A DNA stretch of 61,789 bases from Mycobacterium sp. UM_CSW (GTDB lineage: Bacteria; Actinomycetota; Actinomycetes; Mycobacteriales; Mycobacteriaceae). A program made the translations under genes and the position numbers. Positions 6,081-61,789 of the stretch are shown here, piece by piece (position 1 is the stretch's first letter; every line of letters begins with the position of its first letter). A model generated the notes under the pieces. The model was not told the DNA's origin, made no database searches, and saw only the letters and a list, made by a program, of their open reading frames with translations. Where the stretch lies: contig NZ_AUWQ01000048.1 in assembly GCF_000455205.1 (NCBI RefSeq), forward strand, positions 1 through 61,789. Direction: 5' to 3'.

Positions 6081-6176
6081 AAAAGGGACGACCCCCGCCA
6101 GGGGGGGAGGAGGCGAGGGTCGTCGTGTATCAGCCCCGGGGGGTCGGGCTGATGCACCCTCGGCTCAGGCCGAGTA
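6081..6176 (-). ncRNA. 6C small RNA (B11 type)
   Basis: On the minus strand two stable hairpins present C-rich loops. One has stem arms at 6129-6137 and 6147-6155 with a loop containing CCCCCC. The other is a 13-bp stem (6087-6099 with 6112-6124, one mismatch) whose loop holds seven C in a row. The second hairpin is followed by TTTT, so it also works as the terminator. Two hairpins with runs of at least six C are the defining feature of the actinobacterial 6C RNA. In M. tuberculosis the 6C RNA (B11) lies between Rv3660c and Rv3661, the same place as here. Length is about 95 nt. Confidence 0.88.
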
Positions 6177-7286: not shown

Positions 7287-7585
7287 ACGGAAGCCCGGTG
7301 AGGCCAAGGTCGATCCGGAAGAGAAGGATCGTTCTCCCGAACCTGGCGCCCAGCACGGAACCCGGCACCCACGCGGAGTCATAGCCGCGATAATGGCAGA
7401 AGTGTTGCGGGCCTGCGTAATTGCGAAAAGTGAAAGGCGTCGACGGCCCTTTGGGTGGGGTTGCAGCCGGAAGCATCGCAAGATCGCCGAGGCCAACCCA
7501 CGCAGCCCAGAAATGCACGCTTGGTAACCGAGTTCCGTGCTAGCGGGCGGCGGACCGAATAATTCGGGACGTCGCCCGCTTTACA
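7287..7585 (+). ncRNA. Ms1 / MTS2823-type small RNA
   Basis: The 429-bp gap between two convergent genes holds no credible reading frame. It does hold a complete transcription unit: promoter at 7252-7280, predicted start at 7287 and a strong hairpin terminator ending near 7585, giving about 300 nt. M. tuberculosis MTS2823 (ncRv13661A) and M. smegmatis Ms1 are abundant RNAs of about 300 nt at this same place, downstream of Rv3661. Ms1 binds core RNA polymerase in stationary phase. The identity rests on position, length and transcription signals; the sequence itself was not aligned. Confidence 0.75.
7542..7585 (+). terminator. Intrinsic terminator of the Ms1-like RNA
   Basis: AGCGGGCG (7542-7549) pairs with CGCCCGCT (7573-7580), with a smaller inner hairpin CCGAA/TTCGG between them, followed by TTTACATTT. 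Confidence 0.7.
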
Positions 7586-7627
7586 TTTGTGAAACAAATT
7601 CCGCGCCACCGATTTCGGTGCCATCGG

Positions 7628-51588: not shown

Positions 51589-52758
51589 TCACGGATGGAG
51601 GACGACTTTGGTGCAGCCGTCCTGCTTGTGTTTGAAGATCTCGTAGCCGTGCGGCGCCTGATCGAGCCCGAGATGGTGGGTGATGATGACGGTCGGGTCG
51701 ATGTCGCCGCTGCGGATCCGCTCCAGTAGGGGCCGCATGTAGCGCTGCACGTGGCATTGGCCCGTCTTGATGGTCAGCGACCGGTTCATGATCGCGCCGA
51801 TGGGAAACTTGTCCATCAGGCCGCCGTAGACCCCGACGATCGAGATGGTGCCGCCGTTGCGGCAACTCATCGCTGCTTCCCGAAGTGCATGCGGGCGTTC
51901 GGTTTCCAGCCGCATCGCCTGCTTCACCCGATCGTAGGCGTCCACCGGGGTGGACCCATTGCGCGCCTCCATCCCGACCGCATCGATGCAGTGATCCGGC
52001 CCCCGCCCGGCGGTGATGTCCTGAAGCCCCTCGAGGACCGGCGTTTCGTCGAAGTTGACGGTTGTCGCGCCGATCTTTTCGGCCAGCTCGAGCCGATAGG
52101 GCACCCGGTCGATGGCGATGACCTTCGATGCGCCCAGCAGGAACGCGCTCATGATCGCGAACAGCCCGACCGGACCGGCGCCCCACACCGCCACGACCTG
52201 GCCGGGTTGGATATCGCACATCTCGGCGCCCATGTAGCCCGTCGGCAAGATGTCCGACAAGAACAACACTTGATCGTCTGTGAGATCGTCTTCGACCCGA
52301 AGCGGTCCCACGTCGGCGAACGGCACCCGGGCGTATTCCGCTTGGCCACCGGCGAATCCACCGAGCATGTGCGAATACCCGAAGAGCCCCGCCGGGGAAT
52401 GACCCATGAACTTCTCGGCGATGCCCGCGTTCGGGTTCGAGTTCTCGCACAGCGAATACAGGTCACGTTCGCAGGCCGAGCAGGCCCCGCACGCGATCGG
52501 GAACGGCACCACCACCCGGTCGCCGACGGCGAGGTTGGGCACCGCCTTCCCGACCTCGACGACCTCGCCCATGAACTCGTGGCCCAGCACGTCCCCGTGC
52601 TTGACGGTCGGGATGTAGCCGTCGTAGAGGTGCAGGTCCGAACCGCAGATCGCCGTCGAGGTGACGCGCACGATGGCGTCGCGCTCGTTGAGAATCGTCG
52701 GGTCCGGAACCGATTTCACCTCAACGCTGTTGCGTCCCGCCCAGATCGTGGCCTTCAT
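51589..52758 (-). CDS. Zinc-dependent alcohol/formaldehyde dehydrogenase
   Basis: 389 residues. Catalytic zinc ligands are C38 (AICGSD) and H60-E61 (LGHEFMG). Structural zinc is held by C90, C93, C96 and C104. The nucleotide-binding region is [10 protein letters not shown]. Overall it resembles the glutathione-independent formaldehyde dehydrogenase branch of MDR proteins. The ATG overlaps the SRPBCC stop as ATGA. Confidence 0.9.
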
Positions 52759-53877: not shown

Positions 53878-54864
53878 TCAACCGGCCGCGTCGCGCAGCG
53901 CGTCGAGCAAAGGCTGGGCGGCCTCTTTGAGGAAGAGGTCCTGCGTCTCGCCGCCGATCTGGACCAGCGCGATGTCGGTAAACCCGGCCTCCCAGTAGGG
54001 TCGGACCGCCTCGACGATCGCATCCAGGTCGGGGCCGCACGGAATCGACTCGGCAACGTCTTCGGGCCGCACGAACTGGGTCGCGCCGGCGAAACCGGCC
54101 GGCGTCGGCAGGTCGGCGTTGACCTTCCAGCCGCCGCCGAACCAGCGGAACTGGTCGTGCGCGCGCTGGATGGCGGCATCCCGGTCGGGGTCCCACGACA
54201 CCGGGATCTGGCCGACCACCCGCCCGCCGCCGGCGAGGTTGGCGGCCTGGCGCGCGGCGTGCCACTCGCGGACGAGTTCCGCGTCGGGCTCCACGGCTAT
54301 CAGGTGTTCGGCCAGCCTGGCGAACTTCTCAACGCCCTTCGCCCCGGACATCGCGACCCCGATGCCGATCGGAACGTCCGGCACGTCCCACAGCCGCGCC
54401 GAGTCCACCTGGAAGTACTCGCCGCGCCAGCTCACCAGCTCGCCGCCGAACAGCTCCCGGATGATCTTGATGGCTTCGCGCAGCATGTCCTGCCGACGCT
54501 CGACGGTGGGCCAGCCCCTACCGACGACATGTTCGTTGAGGTTCTCGCCGCTGCCCAGGCCGAGGGTGAACCGGCCGTCGGACAGGATCTGCACGGTGGC
54601 GGCCTGCTGCGCGACGATCGCGGGGTGATACCGCATCGTCGGGCACGTCACGTAGGTGTACAGGTCCACCCGTTCGGTGGCGTGCGCCACCGCACCCAGC
54701 ACCGCCCAGGCGTTCGGCGCGTGCCCCTGCGACGTCAGCCAGGGCGAGAAGTGGTCACTGCACACCTCGAAGTCGAACCCGCGATCTTCGGCTGAAACTG
54801 CGTGCCGCACAAGGTCTTTGGGTCCACTCTGCTCGGTCATCAAAGTGTAGCCAAAATTCGTCAT
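53878..54864 (-). CDS. F420-dependent LLM-class oxidoreductase
   Basis: 328 residues from ATG 54864, which gives the usual FGYTLMTEQ start; the longer frame to 54978 is not needed. The (beta/alpha)8 luciferase-like fold is indicated by DHFSPW, TCPTMRYHPAIVAQ and LGLGSGENLNEHVVG, close to the F420-dependent glucose-6-phosphate dehydrogenase-like group. It would reduce or oxidise a substrate with the deazaflavin F420. GGGTAT lies just upstream but its -35 (GCGTT) is weak. Confidence 0.87.
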   Translation of the reverse strand: MTNFGYTLMTEQSGPKDLVRHAVSAEDRGFDFEVCSDHFSPWLTSQGHAPNAWAVLGAVAHATERVDLYTYVTCPTMRYHPAIVAQQAATVQILSDGRFTLGLGSGENLNEHVVGRGWPTVERRQDMLREAIKIIRELFGGELVSWRGEYFQVDSARLWDVPDVPIGIGVAMSGAKGVEKFARLAEHLIAVEPDAELVREWHAARQAANLAGGGRVVGQIPVSWDPDRDAAIQRAHDQFRWFGGGWKVNADLPTPAGFAGATQFVRPEDVAESIPCGPDLDAIVEAVRPYWEAGFTDIALVQIGGETQDLFLKEAAQPLLDALRDAAG

Positions 54865-54990
54865 AGCCAACTGGATACCCACGCGTTCGCGGACGTAACG
54901 CCTTGCGCACGCGAGCCCAACCACACTGCGACAAACGGTGCCGAAACTCGCAGCCTCGTTCGGTTCGCGGGCGCTCACGAGCGCAAACGG

Positions 54991-56076
54991 CTAATCCGCG
55001 GTGGTGATGGAGTCTCCCGTGACGCCCGCCGCCCGGCGCGCCGCCAGCCTGCGCTTCTGCGGCTCGATCGTGTATCGGGGGTCGCGGGTCGACTCCAGCC
55101 CCGCCTCGAAGAACCCGAACCGCAGCATTGCCGAGGCCGTCAGCAGCGCGATCCCGGACAGGGCGGCGACGCCGCGGTGTTTCCCGCCGAGCAATGCGCC
55201 CAAACCGCCTGCGGCCGCGAGGCGTTCGCTCCACGCCAGCAGCCGGCCCGGCCTGCCGTGGTGCAGCGGTTCCCTGGTCACCGGGTCCATCCGGTGTTCG
55301 GTGAACCTGGCGGAGACCAGATCGCTCGCCGCACCGATGATGGCCAGGGTGCGGGCGGGCCCGGCCTCGGCCACCGGGGTGGTGATCATCGCCAATCCCG
55401 ACGCGGCCAGGGTCGCCGAGCTCGCGAACACGAACGGCAGGTCTTTGTAGGCGGCGTTCCACGTCGGGGTTGCGGTGTCGCTGAGCAGCACCGCGGTGTA
55501 GACGGCAAGCGGCGGCGCGAGGACCGCGGCTTCCAATCCCGCCGGGCCCTCGAGCGCGCGCAGCGGGGCCCGCAGCGGGCCCAGCGGGATGCGCTCGCCG
55601 GTCATCCGGTCGATCTCGGAGACCGTGGCCAACCCGATCCCGGCGCTGAAGGAGCTCAGGATCCACGATCCGACGCTCATCGGCGAGGTCAGCTTGATGG
55701 TCCGCAGCATGTTCACGAAACGCTCGGGCCGGCCTAGGTCCTTCACCAGCGCGACCGCGCCCAGCATCACCGCGATCAGCGCGGACAGCCTGGTGTTGCG
55801 GCGCAGCTTGTCCCGGCCGGTGAGCTGCGCGCCGGCCGCCAGCAGACCCGACCCACCGGCGACGCCGCCCAGGAACAGGTATGCCGCCACTTCATGTCCC
55901 CACGGCGCGGGCTTGACCACCGGGCGTCCGTAGTACGAGCTGAACTCCGCCTCGGGCACCATCGGCATCTCACGCGAGCCGTCGGCACCGCCCTTGCGCC
56001 CCTTGCCCTTTCCGTTGCGCCGCCGGCCGCCCGTCGGCTCGGGCGGGCGCACGCTGTCGAATTCCGAGGTGGTCAC
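54991..56076 (-). CDS. NrfD-like membrane subunit of the formate dehydrogenase
   Basis: 361 residues from GTG 56076 (GTGA overlap with the iron-sulfur gene). A basic Gly/Lys-rich N terminus of about 50 residues precedes eight or so hydrophobic helices with the NrfD/PsrC features WGHEVAAYLFLGGVAGG and KDLGRPERF. It should carry electrons from the iron-sulfur subunit to menaquinone. The heme-binding FdnI type is absent. Confidence 0.87.
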   Translation of the reverse strand: MTTSEFDSVRPPEPTGGRRRNGKGKGRKGGADGSREMPMVPEAEFSSYYGRPVVKPAPWGHEVAAYLFLGGVAGGSGLLAAGAQLTGRDKLRRNTRLSALIAVMLGAVALVKDLGRPERFVNMLRTIKLTSPMSVGSWILSSFSAGIGLATVSEIDRMTGERIPLGPLRAPLRALEGPAGLEAAVLAPPLAVYTAVLLSDTATPTWNAAYKDLPFVFASSATLAASGLAMITTPVAEAGPARTLAIIGAASDLVSARFTEHRMDPVTREPLHHGRPGRLLAWSERLAAAGGLGALLGGKHRGVAALSGIALLTASAMLRFGFFEAGLESTRDPRYTIEPQKRRLAARRAAGVTGDSITTAD

Positions 56077-57035
56077 CTGCTCCTCCAGAACGCCAGCACC
56101 GCCGCGCCGAACATGCCGGCCGCGGCCAGGCCGGCCCGCTTGAACATTTCGGGCAGGTCGGCCGTGCACACCCGCGGGTCGGGCGGCAGCCCGTAGACCT
56201 CCGGCTCGTCGAGCAACAGGAAGATCGAGCCGGTGCCGCCCACCCCGTCGTACTCGTTGGCGCCGTAGAGGCGGGCCTCCGTCAGCCCCTGGGCGTGCAA
56301 CGCGGCGACCCGCTCCCGCGCCTTGACCACCAGGTCGTCGTGGTCGCCGAACTTGATCGAGGTGGTCGGGCAGGTCTGGGCGCACGCCGGTGTCTGGTCC
56401 TCGACCAGGCGGTCGTAGCACAGGGTGCACTTCTGGGCCACCCCGGAAACCGGTTTCTCGCTTGGGGAACCCGGTCGCTGCGCCGGCGTCGTAAAGGTGC
56501 CGTCGCTGCGCCGCTCGACCACCCCGAACGGGCACCCCGCGACGCACGTGCCGCACCCGTTGCAGACGTCGGCCTGCACGACGACCGTGCCGAATTCGGT
56601 GCGGAACAACGCACCGGTCGGGCAGACGTCGAGGCATCCGGCGTGGGTGCAGTGCTTGCACACATCCGACGACATCAGCCAGCGGAACTCCGGCGTGTCC
56701 GGCGGGCTGGTGTCCGGAGGTGCCGGCACGGCGGGCATCCCCAAATCGATTAGCGCCCGGCCGGATTCGCGCGCCTGATCGATGCGGTCGCGGCCCTGCT
56801 CGATGAACGCGACGTGCCGCCACGTGCTCGCGCCCAGCGCGCCGGTGTTGTCGTAGGACGAACCCAGCAGCTCCAGCTCCCCGTCGCGCGGGTTGCGGTT
56901 CCATTCCTTGCAGGCGACCTCGCAGGCCTTGCAGCCGATGCAGATCGAGGTGTCGGTGAAGAATCCCTTGCGCGGCTTGGGAACTGCCCAACCTGCTTCG
57001 GCGGCCGGGTCAGTCGGTCCGCTCAGCTGGCCCAT
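56073..57035 (-). CDS. Iron-sulfur subunit of the formate dehydrogenase
   Basis: 320 residues. Ferredoxin-type Cys groups for four [4Fe-4S] clusters: CIGCKACEVAC, CKHCTHAGCLDVCPTG, CNGCGTCVAGC and CTLCYDR...CAQTCPTT. One helix near the C terminus (about 300-318) anchors it. No TAT signal. It relays electrons from FdhA to the NrfD subunit. It overlaps fdhA by 26 bp. Confidence 0.92.
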   Translation of the reverse strand: MGQLSGPTDPAAEAGWAVPKPRKGFFTDTSICIGCKACEVACKEWNRNPRDGELELLGSSYDNTGALGASTWRHVAFIEQGRDRIDQARESGRALIDLGMPAVPAPPDTSPPDTPEFRWLMSSDVCKHCTHAGCLDVCPTGALFRTEFGTVVVQADVCNGCGTCVAGCPFGVVERRSDGTFTTPAQRPGSPSEKPVSGVAQKCTLCYDRLVEDQTPACAQTCPTTSIKFGDHDDLVVKARERVAALHAQGLTEARLYGANEYDGVGGTGSIFLLLDEPEVYGLPPDPRVCTADLPEMFKRAGLAAAGMFGAAVLAFWRSR

Positions 57036-60000
57036 CGGCTCCCCCTTCCCCGACGGCGTCGCTCAGTCGTACATTTCCCGTCTCGGCAGTGGCGCCCGAG
57101 CGAGATTGGTATTCGGCGATCAGGCGGAGCAGCTCTTCGCCCTGCGGCCGGCGGCCGGGCCGAATGTCGCACGACCCGGCCTTCGACTCCTGGATCTGCA
57201 CGTTGGGATCCAGTGTGACGCCCAGCAAGTCGTTGGCCGCGTCCCCGCTGACCACCGCGTCGCCGCCGACGCCCCAGTGGTAGGGCAAGCCGATCTGGTG
57301 CACCGTGTGGCCGTTGATCACCAGCGGCGCGACGCGTTCGGTGACCAGCACCCTCGCCTCGATCGCCGAGCGGGGCGAGACGATGGTGGCCCACCCGTAG
57401 GGCTCCAGGCCGCGCTCGGCGGCCAGCTCAGGGGACACCTCGCAGAACATCTCCGGCTGCAGCTCCGACAGGTAGGGCAGCCACCGGCTCATGCCGCCGG
57501 CAGTGTGGTGCTCGGTGAGCCGGTAGGTGGTGAACACGTACGGATACACGTCGGCCCCGGGCTCGCCGGCGCTGGGCGCGCTGAGGTTGTCCTTACGCGG
57601 GAACGTGATTCGCGACGGGTTTCGTTGCTGGGGATACAGCGCGTTGGCGACCGGGGACTCCTGCGGTTCGTAATGCGTGGGCAGTGGCCCGTCGACCATC
57701 CCCTTCGGGGCGAACAGCCAGGCTTTGCCGTCGGCCTGCATGATGAACGGGTCATCGCCGGCCAGTGCATCCGGGCCGCCGATGTCCGGATCCGGCCGGA
57801 CGTGTGGGGCGCGGTCGACCGGGAAATCGGGCACGTCGTCGCCGACCCAACGGGCGCGCTGCTCATCCCACCAGATGTAGCGCTTGCGCTCACTCCACGG
57901 TTTGCCATCCGGGTCGGCCGATGCGCGGTTGTACAGGATGCGGCGGTCGGCCGGCCAGGCCCAGCCCCACTCGGACTGGCTGGGACTCGGCCCCCCCAGC
58001 GGCGACCGTCGGGCGGCCTGGTTGACCCCTTCGGCATACACCCCCGAGTAGATCCAGCAGCCGCACGACGTCGACCCGTCGGCCCCCAGCTCGGTGTACC
58101 CCGGCACGGGCTGGCCGGCCTTGGGCCCGGTCAGGTAGCAGCCGCTGATCTCGGCCAGCACCGCGGTGGGGTCGGGCTCGCCATGCTCGTCGGTGGGGTA
58201 GTCCCAGGTCAGGTCCAGCAGCGGCCGGTCGCGTGCGTCGGTAGAGCCGGCCAGCCGCTGCCGGATTCGCTTGCCCAGCTCGACGAAGAATTGCAGCTCG
58301 CTCTGGCAGTCGCCGGGCGGGTCGACGGCCTTGTGGCGCCACTGCACAAGCCGTTGGGTCTGGGTGAACGAACCGGCCTTCTCGACGTGCGTGGCCGCCG
58401 GGAAGAAGAACACCTCGGTCTCGATTTCCTCGGTTTTCAGCTCGCCGGAGGCGATTTCGGGGCCGTCCTTCCAGAAGGTGGCCGACTCGATCAGGTTGAG
58501 ATCGCGCACCACCAACCACTTCAGGCGCGACATCCCCATGCGCTGCAACCGGCCGTGCGCCGAGCCGACGGCCGGATTCTGGCCGAGCAGGAAGTACCCG
58601 TCGACCTCGTCGTCGAGCATCGACATGACCGTCTGGTACGTGCCGTGCGGGCCGGACAGCCGCGGCAGGTAGTCGTAGGCCCAGTCGTTGTCCGCCCGGG
58701 CGGCGTCTCCCCACCACGCCTTGAGCAGGCTGACGAAGTAGGTGTCCGCGTCGGCCCAGAAACCCTTCTGATTCTTTGGCCCGACCGCTTCGATGTACTC
58801 ACGGAACGTGTCGTGCACGCCGGCCTTCGGCATCGACAAGTAGCCGGGGAGCAGGTTGAACAACGTCGGAATATCGGTCGACCCCTGGATGGTGGCGTGA
58901 CCGCGCAGCGCCATGATCCCGCCGCCCGGGCGACCGACGTTGCCGAGCAACAACTGCAGAATCGTTGCGGTGCGGATGAATTGGGCTCCCAGCGTGTGCT
59001 GAGTCCAGCCGACGGCGTAGGCGAAACACGTGGTGCGCTCACGCCCGGAGTTCTCGACGATCGAGCGGGCCAGGTAGTCGAAGTCTTCGGCGCTGATACC
59101 GCAGACGTCGCGCACCATCTCCGGCGTGTACCGCGCGTAATGTCGTTTGACGATCTGAAACACCGTGCGGGGATGCTGCAGGGTCTCGTCGCGCAGCACG
59201 CGAGCGTGCGGCAAGGGCGGACCGCCGCTGCCGTGCACGTCGCCGGCCGCTCGGGCGGATGCGCTGGAGCCGTGCTCTTGACGGTGTTGGTCCTCTTCCT
59301 GTCCGGCATAGGCCCAGGTCGACTGGTCGTACTGCCCGGTCTCGGGATCGTAACCGGAGAACAGACCGCCCAGATCCTCTGTGTCACGGTAATTTTCGTT
59401 GATCAGCGTGGCCGCATTGGTGTACGCGACGACGTACTCCTTGAACCACAGTTCGGCAGAGATGATGTGGTTGATCAGCGCCCCTAGCAGCACCACGTCA
59501 GAGCCCGCCCGGATCGGGATGTGCTTGTCCGACACCGCCGACGTGCGAGTAAACCGCGGATCGACGTGAATCACCTTGGCGCCGCGCGATTTCGCCTCCT
59601 CGACCCACTGGAAGCCGACGGGATGACACTCGGCCATGTTCGAGCCCTGGATGACGATGCAGTCCGCGTTGGCCATGTCTTGCAGTGTTTGGGTGGCGCC
59701 ACCGCGCCCGAAGGAGGTCCCCAGACCGGGAACCGTGGAGCTGTGTCAAATACGAGCTTGATTCTCGATCTGAATCGCGCCGGCGGCGGTGAAGAGCTTC
59801 TTGATGACGTAGTTCTCTTCGTTATCCAGGGTGGCACCGCCGAGTGCGGCGATCTTCATGGTGCGCCGCAGCGGATGTCCCTTCTTGTCGATGTCCTGCC
59901 AGGAATGGCGGCGCGCCTCGACGAAGCGGTCGGCCACCATGTCGATCGCGGTGTCCAGCTCGAGTGGCTGCCACTCGGTCGCTCGCGGAGCGCGGTAGAG

Positions 60001-60327
60001 CACCTTCAGCTGCCGGCCTGGCGAGTTCACCAGCTGTTCACTGGCAGCACCCTTGGGACACAAGCGGCCTCGCGAGATCGGCGAGTCCGGGTCGCCCTCG
60101 ATCTGGACCACCCGTTCGTCCTTGACGTACACCTTCTGCCCGCAGCCGACGGCGCAGTAGGGACAGATGCTTTGGACCACGCGGTCGGCCGTCGTCGTGC
60201 GCGGCGCGACGGCGCGGGTCTGTTTCGAGGTGACGGCCGACCCGCGGCCGAGCTTGTCCCCCGAGCGCAGCTGACGCACGACGGGCCACTCCAGGAAAAG
60301 CTTGCGCATCGTCTTTTTTGGGGCCAT
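57010..60327 (-). CDS. fdhA: Selenocysteine-containing formate dehydrogenase, catalytic subunit
   Basis: 1105 residues when the in-frame TGA at 59748-59746 is read as selenocysteine (residue 194); otherwise two separate frames result (57010-59676 and 59746-60327). The [4Fe-4S] ligands are C55, C58, C62 and C90, and the bis-MGD fold continues with GRGGATQT, IVIQGSNMAE and VVRDLNLIE. The Sec context NQARI-U-HSS matches the E. coli FdnG site (Sec196). It oxidises formate to CO2. No twin-arginine signal is present, so the active site should face the cytoplasm. A mis-annotation as a pseudogene is likely elsewhere. Confidence 0.95.
59716..59734 (-). promoter_or_regulatory. Bacterial SECIS element of fdhA
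   Basis: Minus-strand RNA: 7-bp stem (59734-59728 with 59722-59716) closed by the loop GGUCU (59727-59723). The loop begins 18 nt after the UGA, the same distance as in E. coli fdhF, and has the G and U bases read by SelB. Confidence 0.93.
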
Positions 60328-60366: not shown

Positions 60367-61380
60367 TCAGCGCACCACGATCGGGTGCTCGGCGCGGGGC
60401 ACCAGCTCCCCGATGACGGGCGCACCCGGGATCTCGCCGGCGATCAGCAAACCGCCGGAGGTTTGCGCGTCGGCGAGCAGCAGGGCCTCGTCCTCGCCGA
60501 CCGCGGACAGGTCCGCGTGCGGCGCCACCCAGTCGAGGTTGCGCCGGGTGCCGCCGCTGACGTAGCCGGCCGCCAGCGCCTCGCGCGCGCCATCCAGATA
60601 CGGCACCGCCGCCGAGTCGATCACCGCCGTGACCCCGCTGGCTCGCGCCAACTTGTAAAGGTGGCCCAACAGGCCGAAACCCGTTATGTCCGTTGCACAA
60701 TCGGCGCCCGCTGCCAGCGCCGCGGCCGCCGCGTCGGCGTTGAGGGTGGTCATCACGTCGATCGCCTGCTCGAAGCGCTCCCCGGTGGCCTTGTGCCTGC
60801 TGTTCAGGACGCCGATGCCGAGCGGCTTGGTCAGCGACAGCGGGGTGCCGGGTTTGCCGGAGTCGTTGCGCAGCAACCGGTTCGGGTCCGCGACCCCGGT
60901 GACGGCCAGCCCGTATTTGGGCTCCGGGTCGTCGACGCTGTGCCCGCCGGCGAGGTGGCAGCCGGCCAGGCCGCAGACGTCCAGCCCGCCGCGCAGCGTC
61001 TCGGCCGCCAGCTCGAACGGCAGCACGTCGCGCGGCCAACCCAGCAGGTTCACCGCGACCACCGGGCGCCCGCCCATCGCGTACACGTCGGACAGCGCGT
61101 TGGTGGCCGCGATCCGGCCCCAGTCGTAGGCGTCGTCCACCACCGGGGTGAAGAAGTCCGTCGTCGCGATCAGCGCCGTGCCGCCTTCGATCCGGACCGC
61201 CGCGGCGTCGTCGCCGTGGTCGAGCCCGACCAGCAACTCGCCGAGCGGGTCGCGCGGCGCGGCCGGCCCGAGTCCGCGCACGATGTCCTCCAGTTCACCG
61301 GGCGGGATCTTGCACGCGCAGCCGCCGCCGTGGGCGTACTGGGTCAGTCGGTAAGTCACGAAGTCCATAATTGTCGCCAT
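60367..61380 (-). CDS. selD: Selenophosphate synthetase
   Basis: 337 residues from ATG 61380; an ATG at 61368 is the alternative. Active-site Cys21 and Lys24 in GGGCACKIPP, where some species carry Sec in place of Cys; here it is Cys. ATP and Mg sites are in DDAAAV, TTDFFTPVVDD and NALSDVYAMGG. It makes selenophosphate from selenide and ATP for SelA. It lies 39 bp before fdhA on the same strand, so donor synthesis and the selenoenzyme are probably one operon. Confidence 0.95.
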   Translation of the reverse strand: MATIMDFVTYRLTQYAHGGGCACKIPPGELEDIVRGLGPAAPRDPLGELLVGLDHGDDAAAVRIEGGTALIATTDFFTPVVDDAYDWGRIAATNALSDVYAMGGRPVVAVNLLGWPRDVLPFELAAETLRGGLDVCGLAGCHLAGGHSVDDPEPKYGLAVTGVADPNRLLRNDSGKPGTPLSLTKPLGIGVLNSRHKATGERFEQAIDVMTTLNADAAAAALAAGADCATDITGFGLLGHLYKLARASGVTAVIDSAAVPYLDGAREALAAGYVSGGTRRNLDWVAPHADLSAVGEDEALLLADAQTSGGLLIAGEIPGAPVIGELVPRAEHPIVVR

Positions 61381-61387
61381 GGTCCGA

Positions 61388-61482
61388 GGAGGCGTGTCCG
61401 GTCTGGTGACCGGCGCGGTCTTCAAAACCGTCGAACGGCAGACGCTGCCGCTGGCGGGTTCGATTCCCGTCCGCCTCCGCCA
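61388..61482 (+). tRNA. selC: tRNA-Sec (anticodon TCA)
   Basis: 95 nt with CCA encoded. The acceptor starts GGAGGCG and ends CGCCTCC; a 6-bp D stem with a 4-base loop, anticodon stem GCGGT/ACCGT around CTTCAAA, a long variable arm (CGGCAG/CTGCCG) and an extended acceptor-T stack of about 13 bp are all features of selenocysteine tRNA. It starts seven bases from the selD start codon on the other strand, so the promoters of the two genes lie inside each other's transcribed regions. Confidence 0.96.
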
Positions 61483-61500: not shown

Positions 61501-61789
61501 ATGAGCGACCCGCGCCGACGGGTGCCCGGGACCGACGTCCTGCTCGCCGACCCGCGCCTGGTCGAGGCGCAGCGCGTGCTGGGCCGCGCACTGGTGAAGT
61601 CGGTGATCGTGGAGGCGCAGCGGCGGGCCCGTGCCGGGGAGATCGAGCCCGAGCGCGTCGCCGAGCACGCCGTCGCCGCCCTTCCGGCCACCGCGTCGAG
61701 CCTGCGGCCCGTCCTCAACGCCACCGGCGTCGTCGTGCACACCAACCTGGGCCGGGCGCCGCTGTCACGGGCCGCCGTCGACGCGGTGG
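61501..61789 (+). CDS. selA: L-seryl-tRNA(Sec) selenium transferase (partial, N-terminal 96 residues)
   Basis: ATG 61501, 18 bp after tRNA-Sec, open to the right edge. The N-terminal helix-rich region leads to NATGVVVHTNLGRAPLS, the conserved start of the SelA catalytic domain. The PLP Lys lies beyond the window. SelA turns seryl-tRNA(Sec) into selenocysteyl-tRNA using selenophosphate from SelD. The order selC-selA suggests selB follows. Confidence 0.95.
   Translation, partial: MSDPRRRVPGTDVLLADPRLVEAQRVLGRALVKSVIVEAQRRARAGEIEPERVAEHAVAALPATASSLRPVLNATGVVVHTNLGRAPLSRAAVDAV

Follow-up and report, generated by a model that had tools for sequence, protein, structure and literature searches.

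Is the TGA inside the formate dehydrogenase (FDH) gene fdhA of Mycobacterium sp. UM_CSW read as selenocysteine (Sec), and have the enzyme and the genes that decode its TGA stayed together in evolution? These questions are raised by a window of 61,789 nucleotides, the entire contig C48 (NZ_AUWQ01000048.1) of assembly GCF_000455205.1. From the gene comparisons given below it is highly probable that fdhA encodes a selenocysteine formate dehydrogenase with Sec inserted at residue 194 by SelD, SelA and SelB and with FdhB and FdhC as its partners, and that the FDH operon and the decoding cassette are separable modules. Sec insertion in this strain, the enzyme activity and the topology are what we infer from these comparisons.

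The fdhA reading frame and its TGA codon

57010..60327, minus strand: fdhA, formate dehydrogenase alpha subunit with Sec194, 1105 residues, assigned by NF041513, TIGR01553 and Pfam domains
59746..59748, minus strand: Sec codon 194, the in-frame TGA (59748-59746), kept in relatives and aligned with Sec196 of FdnG and the Sec of 1h0h
59716..59734, minus strand: selenocysteine insertion sequence (SECIS) hairpin GGUUCCC-GGUCU-GGGGACC, loop 59727-59723, assigned by comparative pairing

The gene, from 60327 to 57010, has 1106 codons in one frame, the final stop counted; its sole inner stop is the TGA, and 911 open codons lie downstream of that TGA. A single frame broken only by this codon, at residue 194, had been claimed in an initial annotation made from the sequence alone, and the coordinates agree. 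The product scores 1940.2 bits over residues 11-1076 on NF041513 (formate_DH_Act; curated cut-off 1400) and 932.9 bits on TIGR01553 (cut-off 814), and Pfam places Fe4S4, molybdopterin and dinucleotide-binding domains in it. In members of NF041513 the catalytic position is occupied by Sec (UGA) or Cys, here by the UGA at 194; no second member over the cut-off was found in the genome. In alignment the UGA falls on Sec196 of Escherichia coli FdnG (37% identity over 1032 columns), the position that had been proposed for it, and on the X (Sec) of the FDH structure 1h0h, the top solved structure by sequence score.

The TGA stands at the same codon in all 80 named relatives, the best 80 of 588. When these were joined by 39 further sequences and the window fdhA to a set of 120 (115 distinct, 5 duplicates), 113 carried TGA and 7 a Cys codon (TGC or TGT). 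In two members of the set (L013, L073) the retrieved frame continues past a second stop at its codon 1094, which leaves the UGA region unaffected.

A conserved hairpin behind the TGA

The 7-bp stem of the hairpin begins 11 nt past the UGA and its GGUCU loop 18 nt past it. The distance of 18 nt first reported for the hairpin therefore holds for the start of the loop and not for the stem. Loop sequence and 18-nt distance are identical to those of E. coli fdhF, read from NC_000913, so that the description of the element as near-ideal stands for loop and spacing and fails for the E. coli-type bulged U, which is missing.

The minimum free energy of the hairpin was no better than that of shuffled sequences (z = -0.19, 0.39 and -0.12 for three cuts), and folding energy was dropped as evidence for it. 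A single sequence thus proves little here and comparative support is needed. Across the 113 TGA sequences all 791 of 791 stem cells are in standard pairs and a perfect 7-bp stem is present in 113 of 113, while on average 0.18% of all positions in the same genes have a perfect hairpin of 7 bp with a 5-nt loop. At the outer pair 106 sequences have G-C, 5 have A-U and 2 have G-U; wobbles occur at other pairs, and loop positions 2, 3 and 5 are invariant. Among 148 invariant fourfold-degenerate columns, in which the commonest codon has a median share of 64%, just two show one codon in all 113 sequences, GTT in one and CCC in the other, and the two lie in the 5′ arm; GTT makes up 5.4% of the Val codons in these fdhA genes, yet is fixed at this one hairpin codon. 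Both hold even across FdhA proteins averaging 64% identity to that of the window (20 sequences of the operon type F2, described below). The compared sequences are related and non-independent, hence these statistics carry no p-value.

The 7 Cys relatives retain 4, 3, 4, 4, 5, 3 and 6 of the 7 pairs, none of them all 7; all 7 have Val-Val where the TGA forms have Val-Pro, and the loop GU is found in none. Three observations on the hairpin weigh against the Sec reading of fdhA. Its folding energy is the unremarkable one given above, the 40-nt minimum-energy fold shows it in 87 of 113 sequences and lacks it in the other 26, and the bulged U of the E. coli fdhF stem, which is important for SelB, has no counterpart, the U facing A in 98 and G in 15 of the 113 sequences.

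A degenerate UGA-hairpin pattern matched the genome without mismatch at fdhA alone, other hairpin types not being searched, and gave 3 further matches with 2 mismatches against 1 match in the reversed control. By this pattern search the genome gives no indication of another selenoprotein with a hairpin of the fdhA type.

The TGA in other mycobacteria

The genus was surveyed in 396 genomes, with E-values up to 1e-200 for the FDH family and up to 1e-60 for SelB, and with tRNA-Sec matches over the model cut-off. The FDH family was found in 177 genomes, SelB in 171 and tRNA-Sec in 172; the per-genome tRNA-Sec assignments were taken from E-values among the matches listed and are consistent with this total. 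A TGA-bearing copy is present in 171 of the 177 FDH genomes and a stop-free copy alone (TGC or TGT) in 5, and in the remaining one (G109) the match begins past the site. Two genomes, G197 (L148, L149) and G138 (L151), pair a Cys FDH without a nearby cassette with a Sec FDH. An extra TAG is present in fdhA of G254, and FdhA was matched as two separate pieces in G343 and G247; decay of FdhA is possible in these three.

Could the window gene itself be decaying, its TGA a nonsense mutation or a sequencing error? The unremarkable hairpin energy in a single genome and the few damaged-looking relatives, such as G254 with its extra TAG, would suit this explanation, whereas the codon kept in 80 of the 80 best relatives, the TGA-bearing copies in 171 of 177 genomes with the family, the 911 open codons past the TGA and the conserved stem leave it hardly credible. 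The pseudogene reading was ruled out by this conservation. A gene of the fdhA type can be mis-annotated as two pieces.

The decoding genes and the gap in the assembly

60367..61380, minus strand: selD, selenophosphate synthetase, TIGR00476 388 bits (cut-off 125), start read from the sequence
61388..61482, plus strand: tRNA-Sec, anticodon TCA, found by ARAGORN and by RF01852 at 78.9 bits (cut-off 47)
61501..61789, plus strand: selA, truncated by the contig end after its first 96 codons, TIGR00474 positions 2-101, E 7.1e-14

That selD, tRNA-Sec and selA adjoin fdhA had been noticed at the outset and is borne out by these family matches, selA being represented by its first 96 codons. From its HGGGCACK motif we take the selD product to be of the Cys type. 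The start of selD on the minus strand and the 5′ end of tRNA-Sec on the plus strand are 7 nt apart (61380-61388), and the promoters of selD and tRNA-Sec are probably each inside the other gene.

The search for selB beyond the window, which the initial annotation had proposed, was run. The SelB NCBIfam model gave 11 matches in the genome, none over the cut-off; the best was read as EF-Tu-like and that on contig C53 as infB, by sequence or length and without a family search. A DNA search with the selB region of a relative showed that contig C75 opens with the last 139 codons of selB, a fragment that over 136 residues shares 87.5% identity with the SelB protein of Mycobacterium sp. E787, so that the genome does not lack selB, the finding that would have told against a Sec-decoding system. 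Past selB, C75 continues with a 745-codon open reading frame (L100:421-2658, G000), which L014 does not have at this place, and then with the genes that follow selB in relatives. With the 3′ end of selB on C75 and the 5′ end of selA on C48, the missing part is an assembly gap.

Neither a complete selA nor a complete selB is present in this assembly, which counts against a working system. This leaves room for a second alternative, in which the locus is correctly read and decoding is dead in this strain, selA or selB being broken in the gap and translation stopping at residue 193. Both genes are cut at contig ends, with the missing stretch unreadable, as that alternative would allow, but the start of selA and the end of selB are both open. 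In the near relative Mycobacterium sp. E796 (L012), with an FdhA 98% identical, selA is complete and selB is open for 473 codons, up to the contig end, and contigs of seven relatives (L012, L013, L027, L030, L040, L041, L043) likewise stop in or near selA or selB, which points to a stretch that is hard to assemble. Dead decoding is on these grounds very unlikely, and selA and selB would be intact across the gap. Support is strong for the earlier claim that a Sec-decoding system serves this FDH. In L028 (M. interjectum ATCC 51457T) selA, selB and their neighbours lie in scrambled pieces, possibly an assembly fault.

Across the genus the decoder accompanies the TGA. Of the 171 genomes with a TGA-bearing fdhA, 169 have selB (exceptions G097 and G118, both with tRNA-Sec) and 169 have tRNA-Sec (exceptions G086 and G294), whereas neither was found in any of the 5 Cys-only genomes. 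Among the 219 genomes without the FDH family SelB was found in one (G366) and tRNA-Sec over the cut-off in two (G366, G370), the match in G370 being ambiguous at 48.7 bits, barely above the cut-off of 47. In G073 (L143, L144) fdhA and cassette are far apart on one contig, and L060 has no cassette within its 21 kb; linkage of fdhA and cassette is common and not necessary.

Two cassettes, two operons and their proposed re-pairing

56073..57035, minus strand: fdhB, 4Fe-4S electron-transfer subunit, best NCBIfam match TIGR01582 at 154.9 bits (cut-off 334.7), conserved neighbour
54991..56076, minus strand: fdhC, NrfD-like membrane subunit, Pfam NrfD 8.9e-19, start inferred as GTG at 56076, conserved neighbour
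53878..54978, minus strand: F420-dependent LLM oxidoreductase, flank landmark, TIGR03557 515 bits, synteny

The decoding genes of the relatives fall into two cassettes. Cassette A, that of the window, and cassette B are about 50% identical in SelB, about 60% in SelA and about 70% in SelD, and their tRNA-Sec are visibly different. Cassette B is also found in Arthrobacter, Sinomonas, Kocuria, Skermania and Nakamurella. Among 298 genomes of the order, genus members included, a SelB 70-81% identical to that of cassette A was found outside the genus in 4 (G510, G522, G625, G537), all of one other genus. The window pairs cassette A with operon F1. Among the 120 sequences F1 occurs with cassette B in 59, with cassette A in 27 and without a cassette in the stretch read in 7; F2, with about 64% FdhA identity, occurs with cassette A in 20, and the 7 Cys operons are without a cassette in the stretches read. 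These counts describe a chosen sample (the best 80 of 588 and 40 hand-picked regions) and are not frequencies.

Gene order shows two places for an FDH operon around cassette A. In G062 a gene that we take to be MoxR-like, DUF4350 and a DUF7847/GPDPase-like gene are followed by the F2 operon, selB, selA, selD, the F420 oxidoreductase, a polyketide-cyclase-like gene, ADH and DJ-1, and the F420 oxidoreductase homologue starts about 25 nt past the selD stop with no F1 operon between. L014 and L016, which are of the window's kind, have the same flanks and cassette, no F2 by selB, and F1 between selD and the F420 gene; the window and C75 agree with their gene order.

In the tree of cassette A the basal rows are those of F2, the F1 rows are nested and G062 lies among the latter, and a single clade of the 19 F1+A rows was rejected (p 0.0009, 37 rows). 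With F2 basal, F2 looks ancestral for cassette A and F1 would have arrived later, perhaps more than once or with a reversal. The arrangement suggests that FDH operon and decoding cassette are separable modules that were re-paired in evolution.

The comparison across Mycobacterium that had been advised, to see whether the Sec locus was gained once or lost many times, gives SelB in 171 of 396 genomes and two deeply different cassettes, for which "gained once" is too simple. M. tuberculosis is not known to have the Sec trait. The distribution of the trait in the genus is already published and not new, a heat map of 244 mycobacteria with tRNA-SeC predicted in 103 being given in a passage of PMC9569102, and a pair of tRNA-Sec-free clades is described in part of PMC6582537.

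Probable exchange inside fdhA

57890..59990, minus strand, approximate (300-nt steps): fdhA tract in which the window is nearer to cassette-B species than to L023/L024, its closest relatives in the flanks, from sliding identity and trees

The nearest relatives of the window change along the locus. After L012, the closest in the 3′ part of fdhB (56389-56090) are L023/L024 with 96-97% against 86-88% for L013-L016; the same order is seen in fdhC at 56089-55790 (93-94% against 82-83%) and in the F420 gene at 54889-54590 (95-96% against 86-90%), and in selD the window is slightly closer to L023/L024. Within fdhA, again after L012, the window is nearest to L013-L016, with cassette-B species as the next nearest over the tract of about 59990-57890. 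L054, L140, L133 and L018 are 84-87% identical to the window at 58189-57890, where L023/L024 have 76-77%, and in the bin with the UGA and the hairpin (59989-59690) L054 and L140 reach 92% against 85-87% for L023/L024. The trees disagree likewise. In the FdhA tree the window stands in a group of 6 among cassette-B rows, separate from the other 21 A rows, and one clade of the 27 F1+A rows was rejected (p 0.00017, 60 rows); in the cassette tree, in which L012 stands in for the window, whose selA and selB are cut, L012, L014, L015 and L016 are spread over three places, and their grouping as a single clade was rejected (p about 2e-52).

The simplest reading of these sequences is that recombination carried an fdhA allele of the B background, together with its UGA and hairpin, into several A backgrounds. 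Much of the window fdhA seems to come from a cassette-B background, the direction being taken from the nesting in the tree. More broadly, the Sec-FDH operon and the cassette appear interchangeable, one place holding F2 beyond selB or F1 beyond selD, and fdhA alleles with their UGA and hairpin would recombine between genomes with about half-identical SelB, a proposal that we regard as likely.

Two points weigh against a mosaic fdhA. The clade tests used groups picked after the trees had been seen, and in the first fdhA bin (60289-59990) cassette-B species are 81-83% identical to the window, L023/L024 83-85% and L021/L028 92%. Both could be cited, together with branch supports from quick methods, for the contrary explanation that F1 and cassette A met once and that the mixing is tree error or uneven rates and not exchange of fdhA, since cassette-B species are in that bin no closer than L023/L024 (85 and 83%). 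The switch of nearest relatives from L023/L024 in fdhB, fdhC and the F420 gene to L013-L016 in fdhA, and the conflict between the FdhA and cassette trees, make a single meeting a distinctly poor explanation. Exchange of entire FDH operons in place of fdhA parts is somewhat less improbable and still unlikely: G062 and the window's kind do differ by whole operons in two places around one cassette, whereas the switch seen in the window falls within the operon, with fdhB and fdhC still nearest to L023/L024.

If exchange of fdhA alleles between the two backgrounds is true, one and the same hairpin must be readable for SelB lineages this divergent, and Sec decoding can pass from one lineage to another while the selenoprotein is retained. 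No description of exchange between FDH and decoder in mycobacteria was found in the literature, searched by titles and abstract openings, and the modular re-pairing, or mosaicism, of FDH and decoder looks to be the apparently new part and worth following.

Proposed function and remaining features of the window

In the proposed mechanism SelD would supply selenophosphate, with which SelA would turn Ser-tRNA-Sec into Sec-tRNA-Sec; this tRNA would be delivered by SelB, itself bound to the hairpin just past the UGA, so that residue 194 becomes Sec. By homology Sec194 would be the metal ligand at the molybdopterin site. Together with FdhB and its 4Fe-4S clusters and the NrfD-like FdhC, the enzyme would probably oxidise formate on the cytoplasmic face and pass the electrons to the quinone pool. 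The cytoplasmic side is favoured since no twin-arginine signal was seen in the first 50 residues of FdhA, inspected by eye only. Enzymes of the FDH-N (FdnGHI) type have a twin-arginine signal on the alpha subunit and a cytochrome b gamma subunit. Here the alpha subunit exceeds the TIGR01553 cut-off of that type (932.9 against 814 bits), the beta subunit stays below the TIGR01582 cut-off (154.9 against 334.7 bits), and the third gene of the operon is of the NrfD family in place of a cytochrome b gamma subunit.

The locus links the formate oxidation of many mycobacteria to their selenium supply. With the trait in under half of the sampled species, with one enzyme family in both Sec and Cys forms and with the same hairpin accompanied by two deeply different SelB/tRNA-Sec sets, the genus is a natural experiment in which SelB-SECIS coevolution and the spread of the Sec trait are directly testable.

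Downstream of the FDH operon a zinc-dependent dehydrogenase is encoded at 51589-52758 on the minus strand; its best NCBIfam match is TIGR02819, glutathione-independent formaldehyde dehydrogenase, at 208 bits, below the cut-off of 637. Ms1 RNA (7287-7587, plus strand, 246.5 bits) and 6C RNA (6083-6158, minus strand, 89.1 bits) are both over their Rfam cut-offs and fit the mycobacterial origin of the window.

Comparison with known systems

With E. coli the window shares the Sec position of FdnG and the GGUCU loop and 18-nt distance of fdhF. It differs in the 37% identity to FdnG, in the missing bulged U, in the NrfD-like FdhC, where E. coli FDH has a cytochrome b subunit, and in the Tat signal, not seen by eye. 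Among mycobacteria, M. marinum is described in passages of PMC3434033 as having selA (MMAR_5190) and a Sec FDH (MMAR_5194-5195), absent in the M. ulcerans ancestor; by this description its Sec FDH is linked to selA as in the window, and those passages do not treat the hairpin or the cassette type. FdhA of M. avium paratuberculosis, listed in a table of a 2005 survey (part of PMC1242214), is a mycobacterial recoding candidate like the window fdhA. The tRNA-SeC survey in the passage of PMC9569102 concerns the same trait distribution and does not there treat selB, fdhA or cassette types.

Outside the genus, Actinomycetospora chiangmaiensis has, according to part of PMC7176365, a Sec FDH with SelA, SelB and SelD and a selenium-dependent removal of formate; it has three FDH systems (FDH1-3), whereas the window genome has one NF041513 match over the cut-off. 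Horizontal transfer of the Sec trait among Actinobacteria, for example from Nakamurella to Arthrobacter, with sel genes and a nearby fdhA, is described in passages of PMC5029168; the transfers there are of the whole trait, and these passages present neither a separate exchange of fdhA and decoder nor mycobacteria. The loci of Arthrobacter, Kocuria, Sinomonas and Skermania combine an NF041513 operon with another decoding cassette than that of the window. The window FdhA belongs with the NF041513 family (formate_DH_Act) at 1940 bits, the operons of its relatives also have sel genes alongside, and nothing essential differs; the Sec FDH of the window is of a known kind, being a member of this family and part of a known actinobacterial trait.

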